A stretch of 64,000 nt of DNA. Source: Saccoglossus kowalevskii. Its lineage: Eukaryota; Hemichordata; Enteropneusta; Harrimaniidae. Location: positions 161,316 to 225,315 of the forward strand of contig NW_003144786.1 in NCBI RefSeq assembly GCF_000003605.2, written 5' to 3'. Shown here piece after piece: positions 11,851 through 33,822 of this stretch (position 1 is the first letter of the stretch; the number at the start of each line of letters is the position of its first letter). The translations under genes were made by a program, and so were the position numbers. Under the pieces are notes generated by a model that was given only the letters and a program-made list of their open reading frames with translations, was not told the origin of the DNA and ran no database searches.

Positions 11851-12009
11851 CTACAATTCATCTTTTATGATTTCATTATTGTGTTCTTTATACTTTGGGT
11901 GTTGTTTAACGTAATCTGCCGCATGACGAACTATCTTCATGAATTCCTTAACATCAAACTCGTAGTCTGTAAATTTGGCATGGGGGTAGCCCAGAGATGG
12001 GTGATTGGT
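11851..12009 (-). CDS. EOGT: EOGT coding exon 15: C-terminus with KDEL
   Basis: 53 codons including the stop TAG at 11853-11851. [20 protein letters not shown] matches human HPTLGEHPKFTNYSFDVEE. It ends in KDEL, the classical ER-retrieval signal (human ends HDEL). Confidence 0.96.
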   Translation of the reverse strand, partial: TNHPSLGYPHAKFTDYEFDVKEFMKIVRHAADYVKQHPKYKEHNNEIIKDEL

Positions 12010-15000
12010 CTGAAACGATGAAAAAATATTCAAAATTATTTAATGATTAAAATCAGATAGCTGGTTTTGATGACTCTGTGCGTGTCAAATTGAACGATAC
12101 AAGTGCTGATGCAACTGACTGTAAGTCTCATTGAGCGAAAAATTGTAATCGTAGCTGATAGTATTAATTCATGTACATACCTCATTGTGTTTTTTTAGTT
12201 TGTTGACCCTGATCCAAGTCACATACTTGATTCCTCTAAGATTGGCCAGATCACGATAGCACCTTGGGTCCTCACAATTGTATCTATGGTATCATGCAAA
12301 CACATATAACTAAATGTTATATTTCTTTCATACAACCATTAACGGCCAATCAGTCTCACTCTTACTTAGCAGGTTGAACTCACATATGTGTAATTGTCTT
12401 CTTTAAATACAAAAGACTTTGGAAATAGTGCCCCCAATCGGACATTTTATAACAGCGCCCTCTATGGCACAAATTACACTATAAAGAGTAGTACCTCACT
12501 GTACAATAAACAATTGCATATTTTTAAAGCATCTGTCATCTCACAGACACTGCAGTAATGGATTCTATGGCATAAACACTGTGTAGACAAATGTGATTAA
12601 ATACACAAAAACAAATGTTATAAAACAAAAGATACTAGAGAACACCAAGGATGTGTATCATCCAAGGAAATGTTAAGCCAAATACATGTGAGTCGTCACT
12701 AACTGGTAAATCATTTCATGATATTTGCAGATTTCTAGTAAAGTCCACACACGAATGAAATGTCAGAAAGCATATAAATTTTAATTTGACGAACTAACAG
12801 CTGGTTATGAACTGATCATTTGAACAATCACTGAATTCAAATTTAGCACTATTGTACATTCTACTCCATACATGTACAAAGCATCATGGGAGAGATTTCC
12901 CATTGTATATAATGGAAAAGATTATCACACTGGAAAAATATTAAATTAAATGTAAATTTTTGAAATGATTTAACATTAGAATTCATATCAATAATAACAT
13001 GTCACCAAGTTCAAAGAAATAAAGAAATATAAAGAAATAATTTCACCATAGAAACTTGTGCAAAAATTCAAATTGTCCTATGACCCCATTTTTAATATTA
13101 ATAATAATAAAAATATGAAGAAGATGAAATATAATTTTAATTTTGGCTCAAACCTCTTTAATGTAACATAATATTCTAAGCTTCTTTTCAGATGTTTAAC
13201 ATTTGTGCATCTTTGAATTCACAAGTGTAATTGACTCACACAAGCCTAATAAATTAATATACTTACAATTCAAAGACCACAGCCCAGTCAGGCAGGAAGA
13301 GGGAATGAGTAAGTCCAGCTCCATGCATTCCAATAAATATATCACTATTATGGGTATACTGCAATACAACAATAAACACTCAATATTGGAATTATGGTAA
13401 AATGTCAACTATGATATTCAAAATAAATTTATCAAAACCGAATTAAAAAGGTCGGTTACCTTAAGCTGCTTTAAGAATGGCATGTTTCTGAAAGATAAAA
13501 TAGTTGGATAATAAATATCGTCTTAATACAGTAAAAATACTCAAACTCACATGAGTTCAAAGTTTAAGATATATAGCATTTAAATCAAAATCTAGACTGT
13601 AATCCGTGCATGTGTATAGCAATTTAACTGTGTGGGGAGAGGAGCATAAGGAAGGAAGAGTAGTCGGGAAAAATCTGTCCCTTGATAAATTCATCCAGGT
13701 TTCAGTGTACCAAAAGAAATTTTTCATTCACAATTTATATCACAAAACCTTATTTCAGTCAGATAAGGGTGAAAGGTCAACTTACCGATTATATTCCACT
13801 ACTTTTACAGTTAAATCCTTCTCTTTCTTCATAGCCTTTACTAACTGTCAATAAATCAAAGAGCATATCAGTGTAGTCATAGCAGACAAATACAAATGTT
13901 GATCACAATAAAAAAATAAACTATCAGTTCAATTCATACCTCATTTTGGTTGATTATATTGCGGTGTTTTGTATTCCGGGCTAGCAAAGTCACACGTACT
14001 TTGTTTTTCTGCAAAGTAAAGTATAATTAGAATGCATAGCTTAGGCTTAATACAAGAAAGCAATTATTATTATAAAGCGCCCTCAAAGGCGTCATAATCT
14101 GATTTGCAGATACAGTCACAGCCGAAATTGTGATATTCTTTATACATTTGTCAAAAATTAAATGTACCGGTAGTTTCCCACATTCCTGATGGTAAAATTG
14201 TTATCATTACATCTTTAACGCTATTGGACATCTATTGGATATATACTCACCAAAGGACCTTCTTGTGGTATTTTTAGTCTATGCATAAGATGCTGTGAAA
14301 AAGCCTTGATAATTCCGCTACCATGGCAACTAGGAACTAATGGCATGTTGTAATAAAATCCTCTTTGCATCCTTGGCAGTAAAGAGAACACAGCTTCTTT
14401 CATGCACACCTATGTAATAAAAACATTAACTAAACGGTCAACAAATGCACATATTAGCAAAAGTTGAAAATTCATGAGAAATAAAACTAAATGATAGCAA
14501 GATAATAATGAAGCATAGAGGTCAGATATATTTTGGGTCTGTGTAGTGGAGGAAAAGAGAACTACTTTACGAAGTCTTGTGTTCATAGATTTACATATGG
14601 TTATCTATAATCCCAATATATTGTTGTTCTACAGTTTGGATTGCGTCATTGTTTCACCTAGGGAGTCTAGTGCCGGAAAAGATAAATTAAAGAAAGTAAT
14701 TTTGAATTCCTCGATAGCCTCAGAGAGTTTTTGATAATTTTGTAATTTGCTGCAATTTAATTTAAATCATTAATCCACTGCCAGAAGGGATTGGTATTTT
14801 GGAAGCATTAACAGTCAGTGTTTCTATTGCTATGGTTACACTAAAATAAATGTCACAGGTCACTTGACAGAATTATTCAGCATGTAACTTTAACCAAGCA
14901 TGTACTGCAAATGAAACATGCGAGTGTCTTCATTAATGACCTTTTTTAATAAAGTTGAATTATTCATGATCAAAATATCATTCAAAGCATGGTGGTCAGT

Positions 15001-18000
15001 GAAAGCACGTCAGTTGCAATAAAGCACATGTCCGTTGAAGTGCTGAAATGTGTCAATTTATATTAACGTTTTAATGCCAATGTGTGAAAGCTCACGCAAT
15101 CCCCGCCATTGATAACAGATATATTGAGATTTTTATTTCAACAGAAGCCAATCAAAGTATACAAGGAGTTTTATTTCAGAATTCTATTCAGAGAGGAATC
15201 TAGATTTTGTGTATAACACAAGGCGATTACAAGTCACACAGTCCCAAAACTGTTCGTCTATCATTTATCAGACAAACATGACACTGACCTCTACTTAACA
15301 AAGAGTATTCAGCAAGGATTCTGACAAGAGTTTCTATGCTAGATGAGTGATACTGAATGTAAATCCTTTACATAATAGAAACCCTCCAATTGAAGAATAA
15401 CTCAATATAATATTAACTCAACAATAATAAATTATGCAAAATTGGATTGTTAATCTTAGCAATATTTTGGCAGCATGTTCAATTTAATATTTAACTTTAA
15501 TTTTTCAACAAATTTAGATAATTGCAGGGATAATTTCAAAATCAGAATTCTTTATTCCATGTTATATGTGTGTCACTTGTATTTTAAATCAAAAAGTTGT
15601 TCGAAGGTGTATTCAGTTTTCAAACACTAATAGACTATGCCAAGATACTTAATTAATATGTACACATTTTTTCTTTATTTTCTGCACAAGGTCTTTTGTG
15701 ATGCATCTAAATAAATTTTATATAACAATAATAAAATATATTTAAATTAGATTTTATTGACCTGTTGAGCCCATGACGCCAATCTTACAGAAGGGTCAAC
15801 AACCTGATTAGAATTACCTAGCTTGAGATATGTGAAAAGTTATAATTATAAATCCTAGTCGAGAAATTAACATTTTTATATGAAATCAATTTAAAAAGAA
15901 ATTGATCAATCTTTTACCATGCCCCTTATATATCTGTGCTTTGAAGCCATTTATGTCATAAATGATATACAATACAGATGAAATAGTTTAAATCAATTTT
16001 CGCAAAATTTGCAATTCCTGGACAATTTTGTAGCATTAAATATTTTACTGGGTTTTGAAGACAAGTCCCTGTGACTTTCACAAATATTTTTTCCATTAAT
16101 TAAATTATCAAATTGTGAATCTTAGATGTGGAAATAAAACAGTTTGCAGAATGTCATAAATGTATCATATGCAAATGAATCTAATCAATATGCAGCTATT
16201 CACTAACAAAACAAAATCTCATATTATACACCATCTGTTGCCAGGGTTACAAGGTCAAAAATCCAGAAATACAACATCATAACATAAGTCTTTGTTTTAC
16301 GGGTAAATCCTTGCTATATACTCTTATTAGAGCTCTCCATACCTTTTTTCCATCCCACCGTTTGATCGGTATGATGGGATAGTCACTAAATGCTTGCCAT
16401 GTTGCACTAAAGAAGTCGCCATAGCTTAAGCCACTCTATGTTGAAGTGGAGAAAAAATGGAAAAATTAGATTTCAAAATGTTTGTACTTTAAAATGTGCA
16501 TTGTACTACATAGCTGGTGTGTAGCCACCATGCACAGTAGGGGGCTTCTACGTGGGAGTAAATGAAATGCTACCTTTTTACCATTCCATGCTTTAAGGTG
16601 AATTACTGGATTATCAGTAAATACCTGCCATACAATTTCAAAAAGATCATAATAGCCGAAGTTAGCCTGTAACACGAACACATTATGAAGATTATAGCAG
16701 CGCAAAAGCAACGAGAGAAGAACTCAAAGTATGAGATGTGGAGTTGGTACCCATGGTGATGCTAGTTGCTATGACATTACGACGAGGAATCACAAGAGAA
16801 CACAGCAATCTCTGCATAATGCGATTGTTTTGTTATATGTATACTTACATGTACAGAAACTCTAAATTAAAACGTATTGACTGATTATTATTATTCTTTC
16901 CAATATATACAACAAGGTTTGCAAGATATTGAATAAGTTTTTTTAATTAAAGCTGCTGATATTGTACATTGAATTTACTTGGTACATTATTATTTTTCCA
17001 GTGCACATAACCTTATACTACCATATTTAACGCTTTGAGCTGCGGATTTTTTCTCAGCAAAATTATTGGTCCGCACAGGGACTATAATTAAGCAGCTTTG
17101 ATTTGTAATGATGGCAAAAAGATTTAAAAAAAACATAATATAACACAGCATGATGAAAAATTAATACATTTACCATGGTGATAAAATAAATCATGAACAA
17201 ATTCAAACGTCATATTGATGTTACATAAGGATGCAATAAACGTACATTTCATTTTAAACAAATTTATATCAAAAAGTTTCTCACTTTAATGATGTAGTAG
17301 ACTTAACACGGATGTTATAATTAAGCTTGATATTTGCATATACAAATTGTTCTGAAATATACTAAACTTGTTTTTCAAAAATTGTGCACCAGGTCTGCCA
17401 TTTCTTTGAATTACATTTCACACAACTTATCAAATAATAAATGAAAACAAGCAGCCTATCGGCTGAGATAGCTCCGCTGTTAGCAATGCACATTTCAATT
17501 AAAGAACTGAAGATATCATTAGAAAATGAACAATATGTATAGTATCAAAGCAATCGGACTCGCTGTTTTCAACAAAAATGTCAAAAATATTCATTAAGAT
17601 TAGATAATTGAAGATATCATCACGAAATGAACAAATCTGAGAGAGGTCTACCTGAGGTACCTATATGTATAGTATCAAAGCAATCAGACGGTTTTTAACA
17701 AGAAGTCGAAAATATCACTTTTTACCAAAAATTTTAAAATATTCACCAAAATTAGAGAATTAAAGATATCATCACGAAATAAACAAATCTGAGAGAGGTC
17801 CAGATTTAGTACCTATATATGTAATATCAAAGCAATTGGACTTGCAGTTTTTAACAAGAAGTCGAAAATATCACTTTTTACCAAAAATGACAAAAATATT
17901 CACCAAAATTAGAGAATTGAAGATATCAACATGAAATGAACAAACCTAAGAGAGGTCTACCCAAGGTACATATACACCAAGTATCAAATCATTCAAGCTT

Positions 18001-21000
18001 GTAGTTTTCAAGAAGAAGTCGAAAAAGTAAAACATTGACATGAATGACGGAAGACGAACAATCACTCATATGATAAGCTCCGCTCGACAAAGTCAACAGT
18101 GTAGCTAATAACATTTGACTGACACATAATAACATAAATTAGTTACAGCAACAAACAAGTCATACATGTCATATTCACACAGTGAAATAATATCAAAAAT
18201 GTTAATTTATTATTTTACACAATACCGATAAATAAATGCAAAATATAATTGTACTGAAACACCATAGTACATTTTTTGGATGTAAAGTACATAAATATGG
18301 ATGAGGTTTTCTGGTTTTAGTAAGTCAGAACAGCTCCATAATTAGGGTAAGCAATTGGAATAAATATGGATTGATTATTTGGCAATACAACCATCATCAC
18401 ACATGTTGCAATATGGTTCAGTCGTTATGTTTCATAATATTAAATACATGTACAACATGCCATGATAAGAGGAACATGAATAATCATATATTTTCAAATT
18501 AAGCATATCAAAGTGTTTTCTCTGACTGCTTGTTTCCATAGAAACTGCATCAAGAGAGAGAATTCTCAATGGGATTATCAACGCTCAGTATGACATTCTT
18601 TTCTTCCAAACCGCGACAAAACCAAAACAAGATTGAAAGTGAGTATACTTACAGTGTCCCACATGACGATATTTACATCGGATGAGAATGAATTATTGAT
18701 ATGCTGTGATATATAAATATTAACAAAATCACAGAAATGGTGATACATATTAATACCTGTCAAGAAAACAAAGAAAGATTGCACATCAAATCATACATAG
18801 TATTATTTAATATTTTTTGATGATACACTGATTTAATTTATAGTCCAAATCCAAGTTAATAGCAAAGTTATAATAAAAAAATGTTATTATTTATGAAACA
18901 AAAGTGGATATTGCATTATTTATTGCAAGGTATCAAATTCTTCAGAATGAATGTTACTTTCTATCATAGAGTAGGATCCATTGAATTTAGATAAACATTT
19001 GATTTAAACAAGCAAGACATGAATACACCTTAAAGTAGAATTATAAGTAGGCAGTACATACATGTATAATGCTTGAAAACATTGATAAAAAGACTGGCAA
19101 TATTCATAATAGTCTGTCTATAAATGTTCACTGAACAACATTCTGTTCAGTGGTTGTAGACAGTAAAACCATTTATTTTTTACTATTTTAATTTTAATAT
19201 TTTGATGTTTTTACTGGGTTTTAATTTAAGTTCAAAAATTTGCCAGGGAAACAATGAGTTATGTTGTCATGCTCACATGGATTTCATTTCACAGATTATA
19301 CCTATCATTGATAATGGTGAAAACCCAGATAAAAATAAATTCCTATATAGTACTATAATTTTTACAAATGTGTAAATTACCTTTTGTGGAAAAAATGCTA
19401 TTTTGAGAAGAGTTACTATATGACACAATAAAAAAGCATTATTTCTGAAAACCTAGAGTTTAAAAAAAAATTCAAAACAAAAGAAGTAGCCAGTCATACC
19501 ATGGTATATAATTGTACCTCGTGCATGTTTTCAACACACTGACAACATGGCTGTCATGATTGATCTACCATATTTGATCTATTAGTGCTTGATCTTACAA
19601 AAATGGCAAAAGTTTGTCAATGATGAAAACAAGTTTCATTCTAATAACCCAGAATCTACTAAAGGTAACTGTTAATTTACAAGCATTTCTATTAAAAAAT
19701 ATTTAAAAAAAATATTTATGAACAACTTTTTCTTTGGTGACCAAATTTCATTCGGTATTTTTCTTTGATGAGTAGGCATCTATCTTATGAAAATAGTCAA
19801 TGCATATACATGTACTATAACAAATTCATGTAGACATACTGAATTGAGGAGTGTCAAAAAATTCTTACCTGCATCAAGTTTCATAAAATAAGTCGGTTTG
19901 TTGATTATAATATCACAGTCTTTTGTGTTTGGTATTTGAAAATCAAATGAAGTAAAGCTATTAAGTTCAGCATACCTACAAGAAATAATTCAAGATTATT
20001 TTTTAGAATAATACCTGGTATACAAGTAAAACAAGACGTTGAACATGACAAAGTCCCTGCTAAACATTGTCTTTATAGATCACAAGTGAAAGTAATGCAA
20101 CTTGAGCGTCAGTAAACTGCCAAGTACAATTTATGTCATTCTTCGGGACTAGAATATCCACCATTTCATAGAAATTATGTACACGTGTATACTGTCAAGT
20201 CTGTATAACCAAAGTTGACAAAATTAGACAAATTTTGTTTTAAAAAAAATCACAAAAACAAAATGGCCGGCCATTTTAAATCAAATCACAAAAGTAAATG
20301 TTAATGTAGATATATCTACTTGGTATTCTATCATTTTGGTACTAAGATTAGTTCAAGAGAAACTGGCATGTTAACTATGAGATACAAAATGGCCACCAAT
20401 CAACCACATTTGGTTGAATGACAAAAAGATGTGTACCATGCAACTCATCTATCTGTCCACTAAATTTAAACAGAAAAGGTATTTTCATTCAAGAGAAACT
20501 GGCATGGAACCAATAAAGACAAAATGGCTACCAGTAGGCCATATTTTTTTGAGTCACAGAAAAAAATGAAATTCACCTGTAACCCAATATGTATAATCAC
20601 CATACCAACTTTGATCCAAATTAGCCCAGTCATCACTAGCATGTACACTACTATTGCGCAACCAAGCCAGCAATTATTATAGCGAATTACACTGACTGGA
20701 AGCCATTCAACCTTAGTTAACTTTTACATTTTCTATACATGTACTCCACACACAAGCGATGTACTCAAAAGTTTCTTTGCTACATGCATGACTACTCACT
20801 TTCCTTTCACCACACTAGCTTATCCTATGTACTGATGGGAATTAATTTAACCAATCAATCATACTAATTCTGAATAGACCATGTGCATTCAACCTTACTG
20901 AAGTATTTACTTCCTAAGCTGTACAACAAACCAACTGAAAAATGACATAGCAGTACAATTTGCTACACTTAAATGAGCATAAACATGATCATGAATTTTG

Positions 21001-24000
21001 GGATCAAAGAAGTGAATGAATGAGTGAATGAATGAAAGAACAAATGAATGAACAAGTAAATAATAAGTAAAGGGAAATAAAGTTCAAATAAATACCTTTT
21101 TAGTCGCATTAGTTATGGCATAGACGTTGATTTCACTAATTAATTGTTGTGTTTATCATCAAAATATTTTGTTTTCAATCTTTCATGAACATTTTTTGTT
21201 ATTGAATATTAGATTCTCAGTAAAATCCAGTTTACTAGTTACAGTGTAGCAACACCTAAATGACACCAACAAGTCAGAGTTAGTCAGATTTATTTATGTT
21301 AGTTCAACATCCATTCATTCATCGTGTCAACAGATATGGTTCTTATAAACTACTGGTAAAGCAACATCCACTGATTTGTTTCATCAATTTTGTAAGTGGC
21401 TAGTAAAAGTATTTGTTCAGCACATTCTATAGAAAACGTTTCTCCTAATTTTCAACACCTCACAGCCACATTGACAAAGCGGTCATTGTGTACCCAAGGT
21501 CAGTGTCTTTCTCACAGAATCCAAGCATTTCAAAGGTAACCTAATTATAGAAGACTGCAACAACATAAAATATCTATCAATGTCAGAGTCATATTGTTTC
21601 TATTATTTGTGTTTTTATGGTCTCTTATAAAAACTTGCCATTATAATGTTTTGTATTTTATTTGTCTCAAAACATGAGTACGATACTTAGTTTTAATTGT
21701 TCAGAAGTGCATATACTGGCGGTTTGTTGCACGGTCATTATCTTTCATTTGAATGTGTATTTCAATAAGCTCTGCAGGGTGAAAAGGTCATAAATAAAAA
21801 TTAAATTGACAAAGCAAGTTTCATTTCAGAAATATAAACACCAAGATACACACAATAATCCACTCCATAATTCACATCGTAATTCACAACATAATCCACA
21901 CAATAATCCACACCATAATCCACACCATAATCCACACAATAATTCACACAATAATCCACACCATAATCCGCACCATAATTCGCACTATAATCCGCACCAT
22001 AATCCACACCATAATCCACACTATAATCCGCACCATAATCCACACCATAATTAATCAGTTCCCACAAGTTACAGGTCTTATGCTGTATCATTTTATTAAA
22101 TTCAAAGGTGATAAAAATGCTCAAACTTGAAATAACTCACCATGATTGTAGCTCACTATTATGGGCAGATTCTGCTTTCAATTCATCCACTTTTAACTGA
22201 CAATGACCTCCAATTTCACCTTCATGGAAGATATCATTTCTGAATCTGTATTCAAAATGTTTTGTCAAAAAATAACCATCAGTAAAACAAACTTTCAGTA
22301 AAGCATATCTTTCAACAATTTTTTGCTTCGGTATTTTATAATTGAACAAATACCATAAAATATTTTTAAAACAATTACAAGTTATTATTATTAGTTGTTA
22401 TATTTTTATAAAAATATTTTTAAATCTTGATATCAATATTTTGTTGCAAACAGACCACTTAATAAATAAAACATGCACTCAAAATAATTCACATACCTTT
22501 GTCTACTGTTACCAGAATTCAGATTGCTAAAATCAAAATAAATATTGTGACCTCTACAATGTCTTAAATATTGAGTACACTCGAGAGATGAGTCACCCTA
22601 TAAAACAAATAAAAAGAAAATACTCTTGTGAGTTAAAATTAACTCCACATTAGACACTGCTTTATCATGCATGTGTGACTGCTATTCTGCTGACTGCTAA
22701 CAACAGATGGTTTAGATGAACCATTGAAACTATTATGAGGGATGTAACTCTTGATGGGGTATGTATTAAACAGTAATTATGAATACCTTTTTATAAACAT
22801 GTTACTATGTAAAGCGATTCAAATGTTATTGTTATGTTTCTCAATATCCATAAAAATATACCTACTGGAATTCTTGGGTTATAAAACCATTTAATTTTCA
22901 CTGCTGAAATTGTTAGCAATTTTATGATTGTATCCCATTTGAGAAGACAAAATTCACTGAAATCCATGTTGAGCTTAGACTAGTTTTTAGTGTTACAAAT
23001 CTTAGTGATATTTATATACATGTATGTATGATGTCAACGCAATTGGACCTGCAGTATTTACCAAAAATGACAAAAATATTCACCGAAATTAGAGAATTAA
23101 AGATATCAAGGTACTTATAGTATCAAAGCAATAAGGCTTATAATTTTTAAGACAAAGATGACAGCGGAGCTAAAAATTTGTATCATTCACTTCACTTTAT
23201 AAACCAGTACTCAATACTCAATTTTTTTTATAATGCACCGTGTACTGGTACATAATGTTTTAATCCACAACTGTGATTTTACATACAGGGGTATATCCTA
23301 ATCCTCATTGCAGGAGCATGAAAGACCCAATTCAATATTATTAATCTACCATACAATGAATTTGAATTCAGCCAATATCTACAGAAACAAATGGGTAATG
23401 TTTTCTACTATATTAGATTATTGTGCTGTATGGCGGAAACTAGAGGATTAAAGTCAGTTTTTAAAGTTCATAGTGATCTCAGGAAAGAATTGCAAACTCA
23501 ATATGAGATCTAGTGAGAATCTATTATTTATTTTTCAAAAAATACTGAGATTTTTTATTTACCAAAACTATATATTATTTTCATTCATAACGATATCATC
23601 TATAATATTACTTTACAGAGTGTGCAACTGTAAATTTTAATTTATGCAATGTGTAAGATTTTACCCAGAATTATTAATAATCTTACTACTAATATTACTA
23701 CTTTGTTATGGTATAGAGATGTAAATATATAATCTAAAATTCTTAGCATATGGTCAAAAAAATATCCAGCTGACTTATTAGATATCACTGTGTTTGTTTT
23801 TATGAGTCTGAATGATAGAGGTCATATGTTAGTTTCAAAGTGATATAGAAAAATAAAAATTTGCCTTGACCTGAGACCACACATAGGCTTAAATTTCTAA
23901 TAATTTTAATATTTCAATTCTGCGGGAAATTGAACACTGTCATTTTCTTTTAGGCACTGGGTGTAAGAATTGTAATATACATTAAATGACAGACTGTGTA

Positions 24001-27000
24001 AATTTTAACATTAATGCAAGCCCAAAAAAAAAGGAAACACCCTATCCTAAGGTTAATCTAATTGTTTCCACTTGAAGAATAAGCCCAAAATGGCTGAGCA
24101 AAACTGGTACATTTTTTTATGAAAATTTCCAGGTTTATTAAGTATGTGCTGGAAAGAATTCATTCGTGTTCATCTCAGATGTTCCTCATTATTCACAAAG
24201 TTTGGAAAATGAATGTGGCAATAATAAGAACATTTCTATAAAACCGCCACTGTGTTCTATCTACGTTATTATTCGTTTGCAANNNNNNNNNNNNNNNNNN
24301 NNNNNNNNNNNNNNNNNNNNNNNNNNNNNNNNTTTTACCAAAAATTACAAAAATATTCACCAAAATTAGAGAATTAAAGATATCATTACAAAATGAACAA
24401 ATCTGAGAGAGGTCGACATGTAGTACCTATATACGTAATATCAAAGCAATTGGACTTGCGGTTTTCAACAAGAAGTCGAAAATATCACTTTTTACTAAAA
24501 ATGACAAAAATATTCACCAAAATTAGAGAATTGAAGATATCATCATGAAATGAACAAATCTGAGAGAGGTCTACCCAAGGTACATATACACCAAGTATCA
24601 AAGCATTCAGGCTTGTAGTTTTCAAGAAGAAGTCGAAAAAGTAAAACATTGACACGGACGACAGACGACGGACGACGACGACGGACGACGACGACGGACA
24701 ATCACTCATATGATAAGCTCCGCTCGACAAAGTCGACAGCGGAGCTAAAAATTAAAATCATGGATAGTTTTACGAGCATCTGATTTTAATTTAAGGTTAG
24801 AAGATAACAACATCCAGAAAATTGAATCAGAAAAGCTTGACAGACTACGTACATCTCAAGAACTAGAAGACACAAATTAATTTGGAACTTAATTTTTAAA
24901 AAATTTAATATTTTTAATCAGCAAAAAGAAAATATATGTATCACCTAAGATATATAATAGCACATTCCATAAGTTTACATATACAAGACATACTGACCTT
25001 GTTCTGTGGTATACAAAATGTCTGCATAGTGTCATGCATTTCTTTGACGTAACCAAAATCTGCAATTCGAAAAAATTCTTTTGCTTGCTCCTCTAAAGTT
25101 GTTGCCCTAAAAATAACAAATCATACATGACAATTAAATATTGTTGTGTTCATGTTACAAGATTTCAGCATGTGCAGAATATTGTTAATCTGTCATGTTT
25201 GTAGAGAGATTACCATAATTATTTTCACGTTTGGGATTCACTTGGGTTCCACTCAGTTTTTGGCAGGCTTACCGGTTAATAACAGTTACGTTCACATTTA
25301 TTAGGACTCAATTAATTGGAACCAAATAGGTTTGTGCTTAAATAACAGTAGCGTTTATATTCATTTAAGCCCCACTCTACTCATTTTTTGATCTATCATG
25401 TTGTCCCGATCTGCACACATGACTGATGCTGTTTACTGTCATGGTATTTACCATTAATCATCATGACAACAAAAATCTGTTTGGATTTGTTTTTATTGAT
25501 TTGTACACCACTATTGGATTCTGGCTCTCTATTTGAGCAGAGATCATGATTTTTTTTGACGTATGCTGATTTGGCTACTATGATAACATAAATATTACAG
25601 CATGGCCAACTTAGACCAAGACCTTCTGTAACATGAATGCAACTTGTCAACGTTTATACCTTGACCGATAGCCGTGTTCTAACTGGTGAACTTGAGCTGG
25701 ACCAAGATTAAGTTAATCTTTGATGTATGTGTAGGGATTAATAATAATAATAACTTTATTACACAACTGCACCATCGGTGGGTGCTGTTTGGTAAGGATA
25801 CAGACGCTGCGTTCATATCAAGAAAGGGACTGATGCAGTCAACATAAGCCGAGATCACATCCTCATTTGTCAAAGTACTGAAGTAACATGCTCCCGAGCT
25901 TGACAAGGTCACATGAGTTGAGCCCTCCGTTGTGCTCCAAAGCCAACACACGCCTGACAGAACAATGTAGTTTTTCACTTCCCCTGATGATTTTTCTCAG
26001 TACCAATTCAAATTGAAGTAACGTCAGATGGTGATAGCCATCAAAGAGTTTATTTGTTTGTTGACATAATGTCTGATAAAATGCTGGCAAATTTTCGCCC
26101 AATGTTTATCAACTTGTTGAAAACAGTCTGTGATTTTTTGCTGAAAACATGGCTTTGATTTGTAGTGTTACCATGGCCCCCAAAATGAATACAAATTGAA
26201 ACTCATTGCAAGAGTTAAGGTGTGAACTTTGCGAATTCAGTGTATTGATCTTACCAGCGATCTTACATTATTCCGTCAGGCGTTAGTGAAGTCTCCTGCC
26301 ATTCGGCAGGCAAAGGTACAACTCACGCCTTTATATGCTATATGCTCCCATAACAATGGAGGTTTCTTGATAGGAAGTATACAGATATTTTTATAAATAT
26401 ATGGCATCGTTTTCGTTGTGAAGTTGACAAATGTGACTGCTAGAAATTTATTAAAAGTCAGAAGATGTTTTATAGAAAATCAACATGAAATCGCCTAATT
26501 GTTACCACACAACATAACTTCAGCATTGAAAGTAGAATTTAGCTAGAATTTATAATTTCATGAATGGCAACATTAGTGGTGACATCACAAAATTTTCTAG
26601 AAAAGCCAGAACTAGATATGAACATATCCAGATATTACCGCAAAACTAAAAACATTTTTATGTTCCATTAATTTTAATTACCATACATTAGATAGGTGTC
26701 GGTTTTGGAGGACTAAATGCAATTCAACATACAAAAGGCGCCACATGCCCGCAGTTGGATCTGGGCTTTCTAAGTGGCCCAAGATATGCAAAACATGTGT
26801 CAACATATCTATTTTGTCCCACACAAGTTTCGGCATATGCCAATATTTAAATCTACCTTGATCCAAATTGAGTTCGCTAGTGAGAACGGGGGTAATGGCC
26901 ATTAGAGTGACATGCGCCAGCTGGCCGTAAACCAATCAAACACAGCTTACTACACATTAACCAATAACTATAATTTAAATTTCAACAGCTGGTAATAAAA

Positions 27001-30000
27001 AACTGAATGTATTTGCTAATATGAATTTCATAGTATAAAAATATATAAAAACAACAAAATTCAAAAGGTATATGTTGATGTCATTTTTTGTTTTTCACAA
27101 CAAAATAATAGTGAATTTATTATGGTTGAAGATATTAAGCCATTTAAATGAAATTTGTTAAAACACATGTGCAATAATCAAATACTAAAAGTTCATGTCA
27201 TTTCAATCACATTGACACCTAGGTGGATTATGTGCTACTATCATAATGTGATAACTACAAGTTCATTGCAATGAAGGGACATTGTAATTGTGGAAATGTT
27301 GAGTTTTTGAACTGGTTGCTATGGATGTTGTCATGGTTGGTATGGACAAAAAACATATTCCAAGAAATCTCAATATGGAAAATATCTAATTGAGCAAATT
27401 AAAATGACACCTTACCCTAATTATTATTATGCAAATTAGCCAAATAATTTTTCTCCCAGTAAATAATTGACCTCCAATTTCAACTTAAGGGCTATACGAA
27501 AACAATTATAAAATCATATACATGCTATCGTTAAAAACATCTGTGTCCTAAATCTATTTTTCTTTTTCACACATTATGACAAGAAGACTTATAACATGTA
27601 TTTATTAAAGCACCAAAGTTATAGTGAAGAGCAAGGTAAATGTATTTACATGTGTTGTTTATGTACTAGCATGGGACCCATATCAAGCCTGATGCAGAGT
27701 GACAACTGTGTTTTATTGATTATATTTTGTGAAAGAGTCACTGAATTTTTTACACAGTTCAATATTGCATATTTTTTTTCACCTGAATTTAATATTCCTA
27801 TTAATATATCCAGGCATCAATTCAAACTTTTTATTAGAGTGGTTACATCAGTATATTTGAAATCAACCTTTATTTCGACACATTGTATTTTAACTTACCA
27901 AGCTTCATGTAATTTATCGCATATAGGATAATTAAGCATTTGATCTTTAGAGCATCCCTCTTCATAACCCCAACATTTACCGCTGTCTAAAGAATCCTTG
28001 AAAACAATTAAAACAAAGACAAATAAAGCAACATACTGGTACAGTACAAATATTAAATATGAGAAGGAAAAACATTTGTAGATTCCATATGGAGTAGTAA
28101 TAATATAAATAAACATTGCAAGAATTAAAATACAATGTCATTTAATTGATAATTTCATTGACAACAGTCTATAACAATTCATACAAGCCATGCATGGCAC
28201 AGTCCCCGTTAATTATCAAATTTAAGATTTATAGTTTTGTTTATAGAAATAAAGCTGGAATATAACCATGTCAGGAATATGATTATGATGATTGTTTAAA
28301 ATTAAAATGATTGACATTTGTATCTGATCATCAAACAAGTACTTGTCCACATTGAGAGATATTGCTCTGGAACAGCATTAATTAAAACAAAATCAGCCAT
28401 CTTGAATACATGTATATATCTACAACATGAAGTATCATGAATATATAAAATTTGAACATAATCAGTCAAAGCATGTCAGAGATATGGCTCTAGAAGCCCA
28501 TTCATTAAAACAAAATGGCCACCAGTCAGCCATTTTTAATCTCATCTGAAAAACAAAATCCATCTGTAAACAGCCGAGAAATTTTGATGATTTCTCAGTA
28601 CAAAAATGTCTGCCATTCGGCCATCTTGAATCAGATCGTGAATAAATTGATGTGTATAAGTATAATAATAATAACTTTATTACACTACTATGCCATCAAA
28701 GGGCGCAGTATGGTAAATAAAATACAAATCATAAAGAATAAAGTAGCTAAACTATAAGATAAAATTAAAATTAAAAAATGTCAAAAGCTTAATAGGAAAA
28801 AAAAATTATAATTATAATGTCATGTATGATGTATGTGTGAAGTTTGATTGTGATTGGTCCAAGCATTTTTAAGATACAGGTCCAGACGCATGCACGGATG
28901 AACGGACACACAGAGGTCAAAACATAAGTCCCTGTTTTCGAACTGTGTTCGAACAGGGACTAAAAATTATAGAAATTTATGCTAATTGTTTTATCAATGT
29001 TTTATCTATTATTGTGCTCTGTGACAGTATCTGTCCTTTTGGGGGTTTTTTGGCCATAAATTTTGTAATTTCTTACATTATTTTGAGTCAAATAAAATAT
29101 TCTATTTAACATGGAAGTAACATTATTGTGTAATTATTTGAAGCACAATTTACATCAGTACCAGTACATATTAATCTAACAATTCAATATTTATTTTTAC
29201 TTGAATTTATTGAACTGAAAACTTCTTAATTTTCACTGCTACGAATTTATTGTAATTTATTTTAGCTGGAATTAAACTTTCCCTGAAGAGACTTTTTGGG
29301 TGTTTTGTAGGAAATTTATTTTCACTGATTGTTGATGAGTTGAATGTAAAATATAGAAAAAAGGGTATATTTGCTGGATTTTATTTTCACTGAATCATTC
29401 CTTCAGTGAAATAGCAAAAATTAATTCCAAACGAAAATAAAATATTTTCACAGTACATTGTAGGAGTGATTGTAGTGGTAGTTTGAGTAGCCCTATTTTT
29501 TTGTCCTGAGAATTTAAAACAATCAAAAGTACATTATTTTAAAAACCCAAATGAAATAACGAGCAGGCAGACTGTGTAGCCGACACAACAGTGTTTAATT
29601 ACTTTGTAAAGGTTGTATAAACCCCCCTAATGACACCCTCTTTCTATGCCCCCCAACTCGCACAATACACGTACCTGCATGCTTAAACTGATGTATTAAC
29701 ACTAACTTTTTAACAGGGCGGTGTCTGAATGGGAGTTTAAAGACCATTTAAAGATTTTAATAAAATATGGCGAAAATGAGCTTTTGAGAATTTAATGAAA
29801 AAAGACAAATGCACAAACAACACTGATAATTACGAAACAGGAAATGTCAAAGACCTAGCTGTATTAAATAGTTTAAACTGGATGGGGGGGTGGGTTGAAC
29901 CGAAACCATTACTGGACTTCATTTATATGGCTAAATACCGTGCGATTAGGACAATTCCTGACCCAAATAACTTCTCTGTTTGCAATCAATTTTAAATAAA

Positions 30001-31911
30001 GTGACAACCTCAACCTTGAAGGTTAGCAAAGGTCATGGATACGCTACAAATTGGAACTGGGCGTCTACATCCAAAAAGTGAGATGCAAACCATGAATGGT
30101 ACCGTATATAGCACAGAAATGCCAACATGGAAGGTCCAAAATTGTATAGGGTGTGAGTACTAATGAACATGGGTGTGGTGAGAAAAGTTGATGAATCAAA
30201 CACAGTTTTGTTGTTCAAATAAAAGACCAATTCACAATCCTGGTATGAAAATAGACATTCATAACTAAATTGATTGATGCTCACTAAAAGAGATGTCATA
30301 AGTCAGTTATAAAGTGACAACAATTAAAATACCATATGAACTCTATTAAAGGTACATACAGTAATTGCTCTATTAGTAGTGCATTACAGGTGTTAAAGTA
30401 ATTTTTAATGATTGAAGTATCCAGCAAAGATTTTTGGTTCATATGCACTCCTGCTAGAGATGTGACTCTGATGGAGCTAACACATGTCAGATAGCGTAGT
30501 TATTGATAGCATTCCTGTAAGCTTTCAATGCACTGAAACTGGTAAAAACTTTGAAATGAATACACAGTGTACAGGTGATTTTCTCAAACAATGCGTGTAC
30601 TTATTGCAATGTTCTTCCCAAGGACATTCACAACTTAGTCACAATGAAAGAAACTTCTTTAGTCCAAGTCTGTATTGTTAGTGTTTTATATTGTATAGTT
30701 CTATGTGGTTGTTACTCAATGTTGGTGGGTGTGTATGAGGTCATATTTAATCACTAAAGGCTACGTACACTGACATTCTCGTTTCAGTCGCCATTTTAAA
30801 AAATGTCATAGTAAATATTTTAATCACTGATTAATTTAATAACCTTAATTTTTACTGCCTGAGAACAATTGAACACTATCGGTATTAGCTGATTACTAGT
30901 ATTACACTAGACATTGCTTTTAAAAAATTGGATAGTATCGATAACAATTGAAAATGTTAAATGCCCAATTTCGCATTATTTTCAACGTTTGCCAGTTTCT
31001 ATCACCTGTGAACTTTATTGACAAGAAATTATTATACTGCATTGAAAAACAATCGTGATATCTGGCAAATACTGCAAAATATAATGAAGAACTGTAACAA
31101 TTACTGTAGACTACTTTATTTTCGCTTGGAATTTATTTTTGCTATTTTCGCTGAAGATAAAATCCAGCAAATATACTTTTTTCCTATATTTCACATTCAA
31201 CTGATCAAAAATCAGTGAAAATAAATTCCATACAAAACGCCCAAAAAGCCTTTTCAGCAAAAATTAATTCCAACGAAAATAAAGTATTTCACAGTATATA
31301 CATGTACCCACTAATATGCAGGCAAAATATGTCAATAATGAAGTTCAAAACAAACAATTTTCTTGAAATCCGAGATCAAAATAATTATTTGCTGATACAC
31401 TCACACTTAAACAGAATTAGGCTTAATATTACACAAGTGGAAAATATATGAAATGAAATGTCTGCAGCCTAAATTCTCATTCCAGACACAGAACAAATTG
31501 GGATTAAAGCGTACATCCATGGCAAAACACATCCGAAGCACAGATGTTTATTAACACATGTACCGATATATGTGGAAAACAGTGTTAGTGATGATATAAA
31601 GCACAAACAAAATATGTGTATTCTAAACTTACCTTATATGGGCATGATGTATTCAATCGACATATTTCAGCAATTTCGGGATTATTTGTAAAATAATACT
31701 GGTAGTGCTCTGGATGTAAATTTGGATCTATGAATTTGATGTCTGGTCTTTTCCTTACTTTATCTTCAATATGTTCTTGAAGGAAATCTTGATGTGACTT
31801 CCCAAGGTGATCAAACTCATCGCCAGTACAACCACTTAGACCACAATCTACTATAAGTACTAGGATCAGATGGAGAATAACAATCTTCCAAAGACACACA
31901 CCTCTCATCAT
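11851..31911 (-). CDS. EOGT: EOGT: EGF domain-specific O-linked N-acetylglucosamine transferase, complete coding region
   Basis: Exons (5' to 3'): 31911-31633, 27996-27899, 25106-24998, 22597-22497, 22245-22141, 19975-19869, 18756-18653, then either 16666-16574 or 16435-16343, then 14409-14251, 14008-13940, 13844-13786, 13487-13460, 13358-13267, 12283-12181, 12009-11851. With one of the twin exons the product is 554 residues (human EOGT 527); with both, 585. EOGT transfers GlcNAc from UDP-GlcNAc to Ser/Thr of EGF repeats (Notch, apical matrix proteins) in the ER lumen. Evidence: signal peptide ([20 protein letters not shown]), near-continuous similarity to human EOGT through the GT61 domain ([54 protein letters not shown]), and C-terminal KDEL for ER retention. 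Every junction is phase-consistent. One codon position is filled by duplicated exons. Confidence 0.96.
12181..12283 (-). CDS. EOGT: EOGT coding exon 14
   Basis: 103 nt. [20 protein letters not shown] matches human [20 protein letters not shown]. Donor AATGAG|GTATGT, phase 0. Confidence 0.94.
12284..13266 (-). other. EOGT intron 14
   Basis: 983 bases, AT-rich. No exon or clear repeat was recognised. Confidence 0.7.
13267..13358 (-). CDS. EOGT: EOGT coding exon 13: HGAGLTH motif
   Basis: 92 nt. [20 protein letters not shown] and [10 protein letters not shown] are nearly identical to human. The HGAG loop is the GT61 family hallmark near the donor sugar site. The donor splits a Leu codon, TT|GTAAGT. 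Confidence 0.95.
13460..13487 (-). CDS. EOGT: EOGT coding exon 12 (28-nt micro-exon)
   Basis: 28 nt between the acceptor TTTCAG and the donor CTTAAG|GTAACC. It encodes NMPFLKQLK (human ELGFLDQLR) and completes the split Arg codon. It is required to keep frame and the family alignment. Confidence 0.88.
13786..13844 (-). CDS. EOGT: EOGT coding exon 11
   Basis: 59 nt. [20 protein letters not shown] matches human [20 protein letters not shown]. The Arg codon is split, CG|GTAAGT. Confidence 0.9.
13940..14008 (-). CDS. EOGT: EOGT coding exon 10
   Basis: 23 codons. [20 protein letters not shown] matches human [20 protein letters not shown]. Donor AATGAG|GTATGA. Confidence 0.93.
14066..14100 (-). 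repeat. Short (TTA)n-tailed repeat fragment
   Basis: On the minus strand a GGGCGCTTTATAATAATAATT-like end resembles the tails at 25738 and 28667. It is short and diverged, so may be coincidental. Confidence 0.35.
14251..14409 (-). CDS. EOGT: EOGT coding exon 9
   Basis: 53 codons. [20 protein letters not shown] and [18 protein letters not shown] match human [20 protein letters not shown] and RAFAQHVLHRLNITQEGP. Either twin exon joins it in phase 0. Confidence 0.95.
14410..16342 (-). other. EOGT intron after exon 8A
   Basis: 1.9 kb, AT-rich. I looked for a third copy of the twin exon and saw none. Confidence 0.65.
16343..16435 (-). CDS. EOGT: EOGT exon 8A (3' member of tandem duplicated exon pair)
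   Basis: 93 nt, phase 0 at both ends, acceptor AACATAG, donor AAAAAG|GTATGG. It encodes [20 protein letters not shown] and then [11 protein letters not shown] (16 of 31 identical to human). It retains the human-like YGD and ATW. The intron separating it from exon 8B is only 138 nt. Confidence 0.9.
16574..16666 (-). CDS. EOGT: EOGT exon 8B (5' member of tandem duplicated exon pair)
   Basis: 93 nt, phase 0 at both ends, acceptor GTTACAG, donor AAAAAG|GTAGCA. It encodes [20 protein letters not shown] and then [11 protein letters not shown]. It aligns without gaps to exon 8A (14 of 31 residues identical) and to human [20 protein letters not shown] followed by IHLK (15 of 31). It keeps the human-like VIHLK that 8A has changed, but has Tyr in place of the Gly of YGD. 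Confidence 0.88.
16667..18652 (-). other. EOGT intron 7
   Basis: 2.0 kb between exon 7 and the twin exons. It holds the family A element at 17463-18100 and a GGGACT-containing fragment near 17086. Nothing coding was recognised. Confidence 0.65.
17463..18100 (-). mobile_element. Repeat family A, HINE/pearl-like non-autonomous element, near full length
   Basis: Minus orientation. The head at the right end has a degenerate hairpin (GTCGAGCGGAGCTTATC at 18081-18065), then tandem units of about 157 bp (CTTTGATAC..., TTTTGGTGAATATTTT). The tail at 17469-17482 repeats the head motif (AGCGGAGCTATC), followed by a small GATAG/CTATC palindrome. It lies in an EOGT intron. No coding capacity. The assignment to Helentron-associated elements is by architecture. 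Confidence 0.7.
18653..18756 (-). CDS. EOGT: EOGT coding exon 7
   Basis: 104 nt. [20 protein letters not shown] and [13 protein letters not shown] are nearly identical to human. The donor ACT|GTAAGT ends in phase 0, directly before the twin exons. Confidence 0.95.
18757..19868 (-). other. EOGT intron 6
   Basis: 1.1 kb, AT-rich. A stretch at about 19168-19250 (CAGTAAAACCATTTATTTT, then ACTGGGTTTTAATTTAAG) resembles half of the TACTGTAAAA MITE family at 44776. Confidence 0.5.
19869..19975 (-). CDS. EOGT: EOGT coding exon 6
   Basis: 107 nt. It completes Trp and reads YAELNSF, then [19 protein letters not shown], close to human [19 protein letters not shown]. Donor GCAG|GTAAGA. Confidence 0.94.
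20220..20660. repeat. Family B-like repeat with internal units
   Basis: TTCAAGAGAAACTGGCATG occurs twice, 138 bp apart (about 20351 and 20489). Each is followed by an AAAATGGC-CCAGT-GCCAT type tract shared with 10380 and 28515. Confidence 0.6.
21848..22054. repeat. 12-bp minisatellite, about 17 units
   Basis: Units of the form CAYAATYCACAC (consensus ATAATCCACACC) run with few substitutions. Because 12 is a multiple of 3, the frames stay open on both strands (HHNP-type and DYGV-type repeats), but these are not genes. Confidence 0.9.
22141..22245 (-). CDS. EOGT: EOGT coding exon 5
   Basis: 105 nt. [20 protein letters not shown] matches human [20 protein letters not shown]. The donor splits the Trp codon, TG|GTGAGT. 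Confidence 0.93.
22497..22597 (-). CDS. EOGT: EOGT coding exon 4
   Basis: 101 nt. [20 protein letters not shown] matches human [20 protein letters not shown]. Donor CAAAG|GTATGT, phase 2. Confidence 0.93.
22995..23175 (-). mobile_element. Repeat family A, short internally deleted copy
   Basis: It shares CAAAAATATTCACC, AGAGAATTAAAGATATCA and the terminal GACAGCGGAGCTAAAAATT with the longer copies. Most tandem units are missing. Confidence 0.65.
24283..24332. other. Assembly gap, 50 N
   Basis: Fifty unknown bases abut a family A repeat. The round number suggests a placeholder and the true size is unknown. Confidence 0.98.
24333..24752 (-). mobile_element. Repeat family A, intact head, tail lost in gap
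   Basis: Minus orientation. A clean terminal hairpin (24716-24746; AGCTCCGCT pairs with AGCGGAGCT) is flanked by CTAAAAATT. A GACGGACGAC microsatellite (about 24655-24699) and then 157-bp tandem units follow. Hairpin, tetranucleotide-like microsatellite and tandem core is the layout of pearl/HINE elements. Confidence 0.75.
24998..25106 (-). CDS. EOGT: EOGT coding exon 3
   Basis: 109 nt. [15 protein letters not shown] matches human KQADFGYARERLEEM. Acceptor TTTTTAG, donor AACAAG|GTCAGT, ending in phase 0. Confidence 0.92.
25107..27898 (-). other. EOGT intron 2
   Basis: 2.8 kb. It holds the repeat at 25738-26102 and an 85-codon minus frame at 26678-26935 that I do not recognise. The rest is AT-rich with no exon seen. 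Confidence 0.6.
25738..26102 (-). repeat. Probable retroposon 3' region with (TTA)n tail
   Basis: The minus strand ends GTGTAATAAAGTTATTATTA at 25761-25738, the same tail as 28690-28667. Upstream, two overlapping frames are open, the longer at 26102-25863 (79 codons, [14 protein letters not shown]...). I cannot assign that frame. A LINE or LINE-derived fragment is the simplest reading. Confidence 0.45.
27899..27996 (-). CDS. EOGT: EOGT coding exon 2
   Basis: 98 nt from the acceptor GTTTTCAAG to [23 protein letters not shown] matches human KYCWGYEKSCKPEF. A second AG 14 bases inside the exon would put a stop in frame, so the upstream acceptor is chosen. Confidence 0.9.
28184..28970 (-). mobile_element. 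Repeat family B, near full-length HINE-like element
   Basis: Minus orientation. The head hairpin at 28927-28961 has stem AGTCCCTGTT/AACAGGGACT plus CGAAC/GTTCG, and is flanked by CTAAAAATT. A GTCCGTTCATCCGTGCATGCG stretch follows. The left tail repeats AACGGGGACT and ends in the palindrome GCCATGCATGGC (28187-28198). A TTA-tailed fragment (28667 onward) sits within it. Confidence 0.7.
28667..28720 (-). repeat. (TTA)n-tailed retroposon end
   Basis: The minus strand reads GATGGCATAGTAGTGTAATA and then AAGTTATTATTATTA, matching the end at 25738. Confidence 0.5.
29212..29460. repeat. MITE-like sequence related to 31102-31296
   Basis: The right end (AAAATAAAATATTTTCACAGTA) and the internal TTTTATTTTCACTGAA and CAGTGAAATAGCAAAAATTAAT are shared with the 31102 element. 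Confidence 0.6.
31102..31296. mobile_element. MITE, 195 bp, TACTGT... termini
   Basis: The left end TACTGTAGACTACTTTATTT is complementary, with small differences, to the right end AAATAAAGTATTTCACAGTA. The interior is near-palindromic (TTGGAATTTATTTTTGCT... versus ...AAAAATTAATTCCAA). A non-coding foldback. Confidence 0.75.
31633..31911 (-). CDS. EOGT: EOGT coding exon 1: signal peptide and N-terminus
   Basis: 93 codons. Tandem ATGs open it; the upstream one at 31911 is used here. The end, [13 protein letters not shown], matches human ATVCRKDSLCPYK. The donor AAG|GTAAGT leaves phase 0. A CTGCAG acceptor just upstream (exon could start at 31914) implies a separate 5' untranslated exon. Confidence 0.93.
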
Positions 31912-33822
31912 AATCTGCAGACAAATTTATAGAATTTCAAAATTATACGCAACAGTATTAAATTTTACGTCTCCATGGGTGAATTCAATATTTCAAAATT
32001 TACAAATTACCCGTATTCACAGACTGATCCTTGGTATGTATTCGCTTGATGAGACAGTATGTCAGAAAACATGCAGTACAGTGGTTTTAAGCTTTCTGAC
32101 TGTCATGTCATTATGTATAAAGCACTTGTATGCAGCTCCTCCCTAACCCAACACTTACACGAAGGCGTCACTATTTACACACACATGTGTCAATGCAGTC
32201 AATACCTTTTTTGTTTAAAACTGAGGTGGGCAAAATGAGGGCATGTGCACAGACTCTATAGACCGATCTGTCAACAGTTCTTGTTTGCCGTGTGAATTAC
32301 TTCATTGTTGTATTCATTGATGCTCTAAACGCTTACCAAAAAATAATTTTTTATAGACATACATGTGAATTACAAAATGCTATTCTTTTTTTCCGAACCA
32401 TCACTAATAAAGAAAAATCCTTAAATCTATGTTTGAAAACCTTGAAGCCAATATAATGTTTACTAATTTAGTTCAAGAAAGATTCTGAATTTTTGCCATT
32501 TAAAGTCTCTGCCATCAAATGTCTCTCTTTACAGTTACAGTTGCTTTTCTATGCAGCTGTGTGTTCTGTTAATGAAATGCATGGCTATTGTCTTTAAAGA
32601 TACGAAAGCTGTTTGCAAGAAATTCAGTCAGTTTTCATGCTCCCAAAGAGGGGTCTGGACAATACCCTCCCTGACAAAACCCATCCAGACATATACTCAA
32701 CTTTGGGCAAAATGATTCTTCAATTAAATTTGTTTTTTTCCAAAGAGACTGTTTGAGTTTGTGCTACAAGTATAAGTTCAAAATATTTCTTTTTTTGTAC
32801 TATACCTGTCAGCATGTTTTGTATTCATTCTTTTTTAAACAATTTGTTAGATATATGACATATTTATTTTTATTTACCAATACTAGTTTTTTTATTTGTA
32901 TTTACTAAGTTGCAAGTACACATAATGTACATCATATGGTATGTTTTTTTATTTACCGGTACTATTAAATAACTCCTGTAATACATAAATAAAAATAAAT
33001 GCACAATACTTGTAACACCTGAATTATTAATGCAAAACAATAAATATCTCAGTCATTATTTTGTAAAACATGTGCATTCCGGAAAAGTTTACCTTATGCA
33101 GGATGTGCTTCCGAAACTCACATAGGTTTTGAAACCAAATATGTACACATCATAGAAGGTGGGTTAAATCTGGTCATAGACCTAAGAAAAGTAAGATAAA
33201 AAACTGAGGCAAACAACAAAGGAAATCAGAATTCTTACTAAAATACTAACTGTAATTCTTAATGAGTTCACCTAAGCTTAACAAAAGAGTGCAATGCAAT
33301 GATGTCACATATCTTGAAACAATCAATTTGTTTGCATCACTTAAAATAGTTTAGACAAGAATCCAAAATAAATTGTCATTTATCTGTCTAAACACTTCAT
33401 AATACCCAGATAAGAATCATAATTTATTTTTTGTAATTTTGTGGCATAGTATTTTTCAGAAATCAATAATTTTGTGTCTCTTTTCTCAAAAAACTTGAAA
33501 ATATTATCCTTCACACTGTATGTCATGTGATAAGCTGAAAAAAGCTGAAAAACGTTACAATTCATAAGAAACCTCTTCTTCTATTACCGGTAATTATTTT
33601 TGTTGAAGTGAGAATTATTTACAATAAACATGAAGTTAGCTGTAATTAAAAGTTGATCATTAACACCAATTACCAGCATGCCCTAATTAGCATAAGTAAT
33701 TCTAACCTAAATTTCTTTTGTATTCTTCTCTAGGATATACGGTCCAGGTAGGGCTTGGCTGTAAATGACTTTTGTCCTATGTGGTTAGGGGGGGGGGTAC
33801 ACTCATAGGTACATTTGTGTAG

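Follow-up and report, generated by a model that had tools for sequence, protein, structure and literature searches.

The EOGT gene of the enteropneust worm Saccoglossus kowalevskii carries a pair of adjacent, homologous 93-nt exons, 8A and 8B, which, we propose, are probably mutually exclusive, one being used at a time. The original prediction of such an exchange holds in so far as this is the best explanation of an intact and conserved pair, but no device that would enforce exclusivity is visible. On this proposal, 8A and 8B would have arisen when a single internal EOGT exon of 93 nt was duplicated in tandem long ago, and each mRNA would run from exon 7 through either 8B or 8A to exon 9. The products would be two EOGT enzymes of 554 amino acids, alike except for a unit of 31 residues (S278-K308 in mouse EOGT). 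We infer that both exons are transcribed and that each excludes the other.

The window (the whole stretch of DNA analysed, 64 kb, positions 161316-225315 of contig C3574) takes in the whole of an EOGT gene, lying on the minus strand from 31,911 down to 11,851, which we rebuilt exon by exon. It is composed of 14 common exons and the two homologous 93-nt exons; all its introns are GT-AG, and a single open frame runs from the start in exon 1 to a KDEL-stop in exon 15. The parts of the gene are as follows, with residues named by their mouse equivalents.

31633..31911, minus strand: exon 1, with the start codon and an N-terminal hydrophobic stretch
27899..27996, minus strand: exon 2
24998..25106, minus strand: exon 3
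22497..22597, minus strand: exon 4
22141..22245, minus strand: exon 5
19869..19975, minus strand: exon 6
18653..18756, minus strand: exon 7, with the equivalents of N245 and H248, which contact UDP, and of the glycan site N263; its last residues are MWDT
16574..16666, minus strand: exon 8B, 93 nt, phase 0/0, 31 residues; donor AAG/GTAGCA (slash at the exon border)
16436..16573, minus strand: intron between 8B and 8A, 138 nt, with one TGCATG and a likely branch A
16343..16435, minus strand: exon 8A, 93 nt, phase 0/0, 31 residues
14251..14409, minus strand: exon 9, with the equivalent of E313; starts VCMKEA
13940..14008, minus strand: exon 10, with the equivalents of R372 and R377
13786..13844, minus strand: exon 11
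13460..13487, minus strand: exon 12, with the equivalent of Q412
13267..13358, minus strand: exon 13, with the GMHGAGLTH block and the equivalent of H432
12181..12283, minus strand: exon 14
11851..12009, minus strand: exon 15, with KDEL then stop, a tail of ER-retention type

By homology, domain, UDP-contact residues and tail, the gene looks like EOGT, the EGF-specific O-GlcNAc transferase of family GT61. A draft model of 552 amino acids scored 596.7 bits against mouse EOGT (9wjk_A) versus 47.8 against the best POMGNT2, and the corrected protein scores 605.8 bits (8A isoform) or 602.8 bits (8B isoform) against the mouse chain, with 256 of 476 aligned residues identical. The GT61 domain PF04577 is found at 59.7 bits (8A isoform) and 59.6 bits (8B isoform), above the Pfam cut-off of 27. 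Six UDP-contact residues are invariant (worm N269, H272, R396, R401, Q435 and H455; mouse N245, H248, R372, R377, Q412 and H432, with mouse numbers counted from DYD295-297 in PMC13123520), and all six lie in common exons.

In the assembly (572 Mb, 4,830 contigs) we found no second EOGT: all four places returned by a query of exons 7-8B-9 fall inside the EOGT gene itself. A PF04577 search of the genome returned two other proteins, both single-frame; EOGT, with its domain split over exons, is not among these matches. The first (L006, C1911:297099-300407, at 817-2739 on the minus strand) is a POMGNT2-like GT61 protein of 640 amino acids whose exon-8 unit reads FSDVPVV. The second (L007, C131:205380-208814, at 934-2715 on the plus strand) is a 593-amino-acid protein that matches GT61 weakly, at 31.5 bits against a cut-off of 27. 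Elsewhere in the window, at 2069-2437 on the minus strand, there is an exon-like frame of calcium-activated chloride channel type (TIGR00868), matching at 59.7 bits on one stretch, with the whole-protein cut-off, 900.85, far above. The mitochondrial contig of the assembly (C4830, L008-L010; 17,037 bp) has COX1 on the strand opposite to ND1 and COX2; in COX1, the one gene counted, AAA occurs once, at a Lys (GKKE), and AGA and AGG are absent. The published S. kowalevskii mitochondrion likewise has an inverted COX1, AAA read as Lys and AGG unused (PMC3121625).

The exon pair itself is as originally described: 8B at 16666-16574 and 8A at 16435-16343, each of 93 nt in phase 0/0 with AG...GT borders and free of stops, separated by the 138-nt intron and flanked by an exon ending MWDT and one starting VCMKEA. 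The gapless alignment of the two translations, with 14/31 residues identical, was reproduced. At the DNA level 55/93 nucleotides are identical, with 18, 21 and 16 of 31 at the three codon positions, the second being highest. The local alignment score of 8A with 8B is 89, and the maximum among 5,000 shuffles was 45. In reciprocal tblastn searches of the 64-kb window 8A and 8B find one another at E 1.7e-8; queried with the mouse EOGT segment, the window yields 8A at E 1.4e-9 and 8B at 9.3e-9. An exon-by-exon control in the gene region confirmed that only 8A and 8B match one another (E 5.5e-9); the other 14 EOGT exons have no twins there (best other place E 0.051 or worse), and the window holds no third copy of the 8A/8B exon (best other place E 0.36). 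The likeness is thus real, well above chance and unique in the gene, and 8A and 8B are internal exons of one gene rather than parts of tandem gene copies, the other exons being single in the gene region. The pair region is free of N (the sole N run before position 33,000 is at 24283-24332), and the 324-bp stretch with both exons occurs once in the assembly, so a haplotype artefact is an unlikely source of the pair.

The claim that both exons are under selection was borne out in that both are conserved at the gene-wide level, on the thin base of 31 residues and one vertebrate sequence. Identity to mouse EOGT (9wjk) is 17/31 for 8A and 16/31 for 8B, close to that of the whole protein given above, while the neighbouring exons are nearer to mouse (27/34 for exon 7 and 33/53 for exon 9). 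In a neutral-drift simulation, which placed 38 differences, as observed, regardless of coding, a BLOSUM score of 89 was reached in 0/20,000 runs from 8A and 0/20,000 from 8B; at least 14 identities were reached in 0.8-0.9% of runs, and 18-20% of runs stayed free of stops. At 7 positions 8A but not 8B has the mouse residue, at 6 positions 8B but not 8A has it, and four residues are common to 8A and 8B only, mouse differing. Of the residues said to be ancestral and kept in one copy, VIHLK in 8B and YGD and TW in 8A are present in mouse; in the SDY of 8A the D and Y are shared, but mouse has T at the first place.

As to the age of the pair, the identity between 8A and 8B (14/31) was lower than the mean of the 8A-mouse and 8B-mouse identities in 80% of 10,000 column bootstraps. 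This comparison suggests that the duplication may date back roughly to the divergence from vertebrates; the alternative is that it came later and was followed by faster change. No relative was found in scans with the worm/mouse alignment, one each of viral contigs and of genome contigs; in these, 10 and 54 stretches respectively matched one of two short patterns and none was confirmed.

We scored donors and acceptors on a small, crude matrix from EOGT's own introns (n=15 each), on which the 8B donor is the lowest of 15 (4.6) and that of 8A the ninth (8.0), and the acceptors of 8B and 8A rank third and sixth of 15. The low donor score would fit constitutive use of 8A, the exon with the better donor, 8B being a copy that is seldom spliced in or is decaying; we think this unlikely, as 8B is nearly as close to mouse (16/31) as are 8A and the rest of the protein, and it is stop-free with its frame and both splice sites intact, including an acceptor that outranks that of 8A on the same crude matrix. 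For a mutually exclusive pair, the weaker donor of 8B takes on another meaning when set beside a TGCATG at 16529..16534 (minus strand), 40 nt downstream of that donor. This hexamer, which we take to be an RBFOX-type motif, is the single copy across introns 7-8B, 8B-8A and 8A-9, and 3.9% of 138-nt windows in EOGT's other introns contain it. As a lead, by analogy, RBFOX would favour 8B and disfavour 8A if it acts as in vertebrates. Our guess for the working of the pair, from the weaker donor and the TGCATG, is that 8A may be taken by default and 8B under regulation.

Devices that might enforce exclusivity were sought in the intron between the exons. The best branch-point candidate is an A placed 30 nt before the 3' splice site, with an AG-exclusion zone of 51 nt (candidates were listed beyond the first 60 nt, and any within those would have inner AGs, at 59, 67 and 86, downstream of it). 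Its distance to the 8B donor, 108 nt, exceeds the steric limit for branch point to donor of about 50 nt (PMC7969005), so the best candidate gives no steric device. Nor is there a frame-break device, since 93 + 93 nt leaves joint inclusion in frame. By a crude test of pairing between the 8B-8A intron and its two neighbours, 9/60 and 58/60 mononucleotide shuffles were as strong, with no excess on either side. A frame break, a near branch point and competing intron pairing are common in mutually exclusive exons but do not define them.

Other features of these introns may be recorded here. Similar repeat stretches lie at 17500-18140 and 24390-24750 (minus strand) in two EOGT introns, one of them directly before exon 8B; their translations have a 27-residue reading in common. 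We also considered a fossil of fused exons in the flanks, where read-through past the 8B donor (16573-16547) gives FHLLPR, resembling FSLLPR of exon 9, and read-through past the 8A donor (16342-16289) gives LPVKQR, resembling LPRMQR of exon 9. Both were rejected as after the fact and weak, the DNA-level likeness being no greater than chance gives in introns. Against windows of introns of the same gene, the protein-level chance was 0.5% or 1.2% for the match downstream of 8B, 11% and 29% downstream of 8A, 3.2% upstream of 8A versus exon 7 (a weak place, L005) and 39% upstream of 8B; the DNA-level chances were 37% (8B downstream), 77% (8A downstream), 100% (8A upstream) and 98% (8B upstream).

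The gene model leaves four exon combinations open: 554 residues with 8A or 8B, 585 with both and 523 with neither. A single mRNA with both exons would encode a 585-amino-acid enzyme in which the 31-residue unit is doubled, and the open frame means that nonsense-mediated decay would not remove such an mRNA; its summed match to mouse EOGT (604.8 bits, in two pieces) is level with that of single inclusion. We nevertheless regard constitutive joining as highly doubtful. Mouse EOGT and the POMGNT2-like paralogue each have a single such unit at this place, and serial copies would be unlikely both to hold the constraint of one slot. Such neighbouring exons are also rarely constitutive: on the fly X chromosome such features were found in 90 of 16,180 exons (6 of 1,705 genes) without annotation as mutually exclusive (PMC3228551). 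Cassette use, with either, both or neither exon included, is allowed by all four combinations being in frame, and skipping of both would give a 523-amino-acid form like a known human cDNA, which lacks the DYD segment (PMC3650022) and has an estimated relative abundance below 0.01 in one patient's data set (PMC8212471). The activity of that human form is predicted to be low or nil (PMC3650022), and in the worm loss of both exons costs about 68 bits against mouse (538.2 bits, again in two pieces), so we give cassette use very little credence.

We return to mutually exclusive use as the preferred reading. 8A and 8B have the features typical of mutually exclusive exons, namely like length, same phase, matching splice sites and homology, and their relative BLOSUM score is 0.50-0.51 of self (ungapped BLOSUM62 sum); the WebScipio default threshold is 0.15 (PMC3228551). 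By the WebScipio criteria the pair is a clear candidate at the level of sequence. Such candidacy is to be read with some care: of the internal predictions that WebScipio makes for the fly X chromosome, only 26 of 65 are annotated ones (PMC3228551), and many neighbouring exons of high similarity are spliced non-exclusively (PMC5740500). The exon 8 unit aligns with the same unit of mouse EOGT and of the worm POMGNT2-like protein (FSDVP), and the two copies thus seem to be alternatives for the same structural slot. Equal length and phase, homology and like constraint on two fillings of that slot together favour the inclusion of a single exon in each mRNA.

What the exchanged segment may do can be considered from the mouse enzyme, in which by alignment it spans S278-K308 and includes the DYD295-297 motif. 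In the 2026 crystal structure of mouse EOGT with UDP, the nucleotide is held by N245, H248, R372, R377, Q412 and H432; DYD295-297 is distal to UDP, its role being left open by the authors, and one figure panel has it together with the glycan sites N263 and N354, which are themselves on the side away from the active site (PMC13123520). E313, which touches the N263 glycan (PMC13123520), lies five residues past the exon 8 segment. Fly and human work from 2013 found that changing DYD to AYA at 295-297 lowers EOGT activity (PMC3650022). The last D of DYD is a proline in both worm exons and also in the POMGNT2-like protein, and this common proline suggests that DYD may be a derived, vertebrate state.

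Since the segment is distal to UDP and the UDP-contact residues lie in common exons, a change in donor binding by the 8A/8B swap is unlikely. The original prediction offered, as its weakest part, a possibly different EGF-acceptor preference for the two isoforms; this finds no support in a motif that is distal to UDP and is figured with glycan sites on the side opposite the active site (PMC13123520), and a change of acceptor choice is possible but unsupported. It is at least as likely that the swap would affect stability, glycan packing, ER distribution or rate. Under our proposal the isoforms would not differ in donor binding, and the difference would lie in their stability, ER distribution, partner contact or rate.

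Judging by titles and abstract openings, the EOGT exon pair is unreported among the matches listed, and a term search found the word EOGT absent from the main text of a survey of human mutually exclusive exons (PMC5740500). The worm pair would be a new case of a well-known kind, mutually exclusive exons, that bears on an open question. If true, it would provide natural alternatives for the 31-residue unit in an otherwise identical enzyme, so that the role of DYD would become testable by exon swap, and it would imply control of the glycosylation of EGF repeats, Notch's included, at the level of splicing. We venture, tentatively and with some doubt, that this deuterostome may retain an old regulated EOGT switch, one that vertebrates have perhaps lost, tuning O-GlcNAc on EGF repeats (Notch pathway) through exchange of the DYD segment far from the donor site. 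Should the exons prove to be joined, or one of them unused, the pair would be no more than an ordinary exon duplication.

Among known systems, exons 4a and 4b of OGDH (PMC7969005) resemble 8A and 8B in being adjacent and homologous and in the swap, proposed for the worm, of a segment inside an enzyme, and the intervening introns are of similar size (138 nt in worm EOGT, 118-131 nt in OGDH of birds and mammals; PMC7969005). In human OGDH exclusivity comes about via branch points 25-41 nt from the donor (PMC7969005), whereas the best candidate in worm EOGT is 108 nt away. Human EOGT offers a likeness of another kind, as alternative splicing represented by NM_173654.1 touches the DYD295-297 segment (PMC3650022, PMC8212471). 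The view that vertebrate EOGT is not known to have such a switch must allow for human splicing that drops the DYD part, though this is not a swap: the human cDNA is without an internal segment bearing DYD (PMC3650022), whereas the worm gene has two full fillings of it. Mouse EOGT (9wjk) and the worm enzyme have in common the N263 site and the six residues that contact UDP, all conserved in the common exons, and a tail of ER-retention type (KDEL in worm, HDEL in mouse). In the mouse chain the 31-residue segment exists in a single form, which contains DYD, whereas the worm has two, both with proline for the last D.
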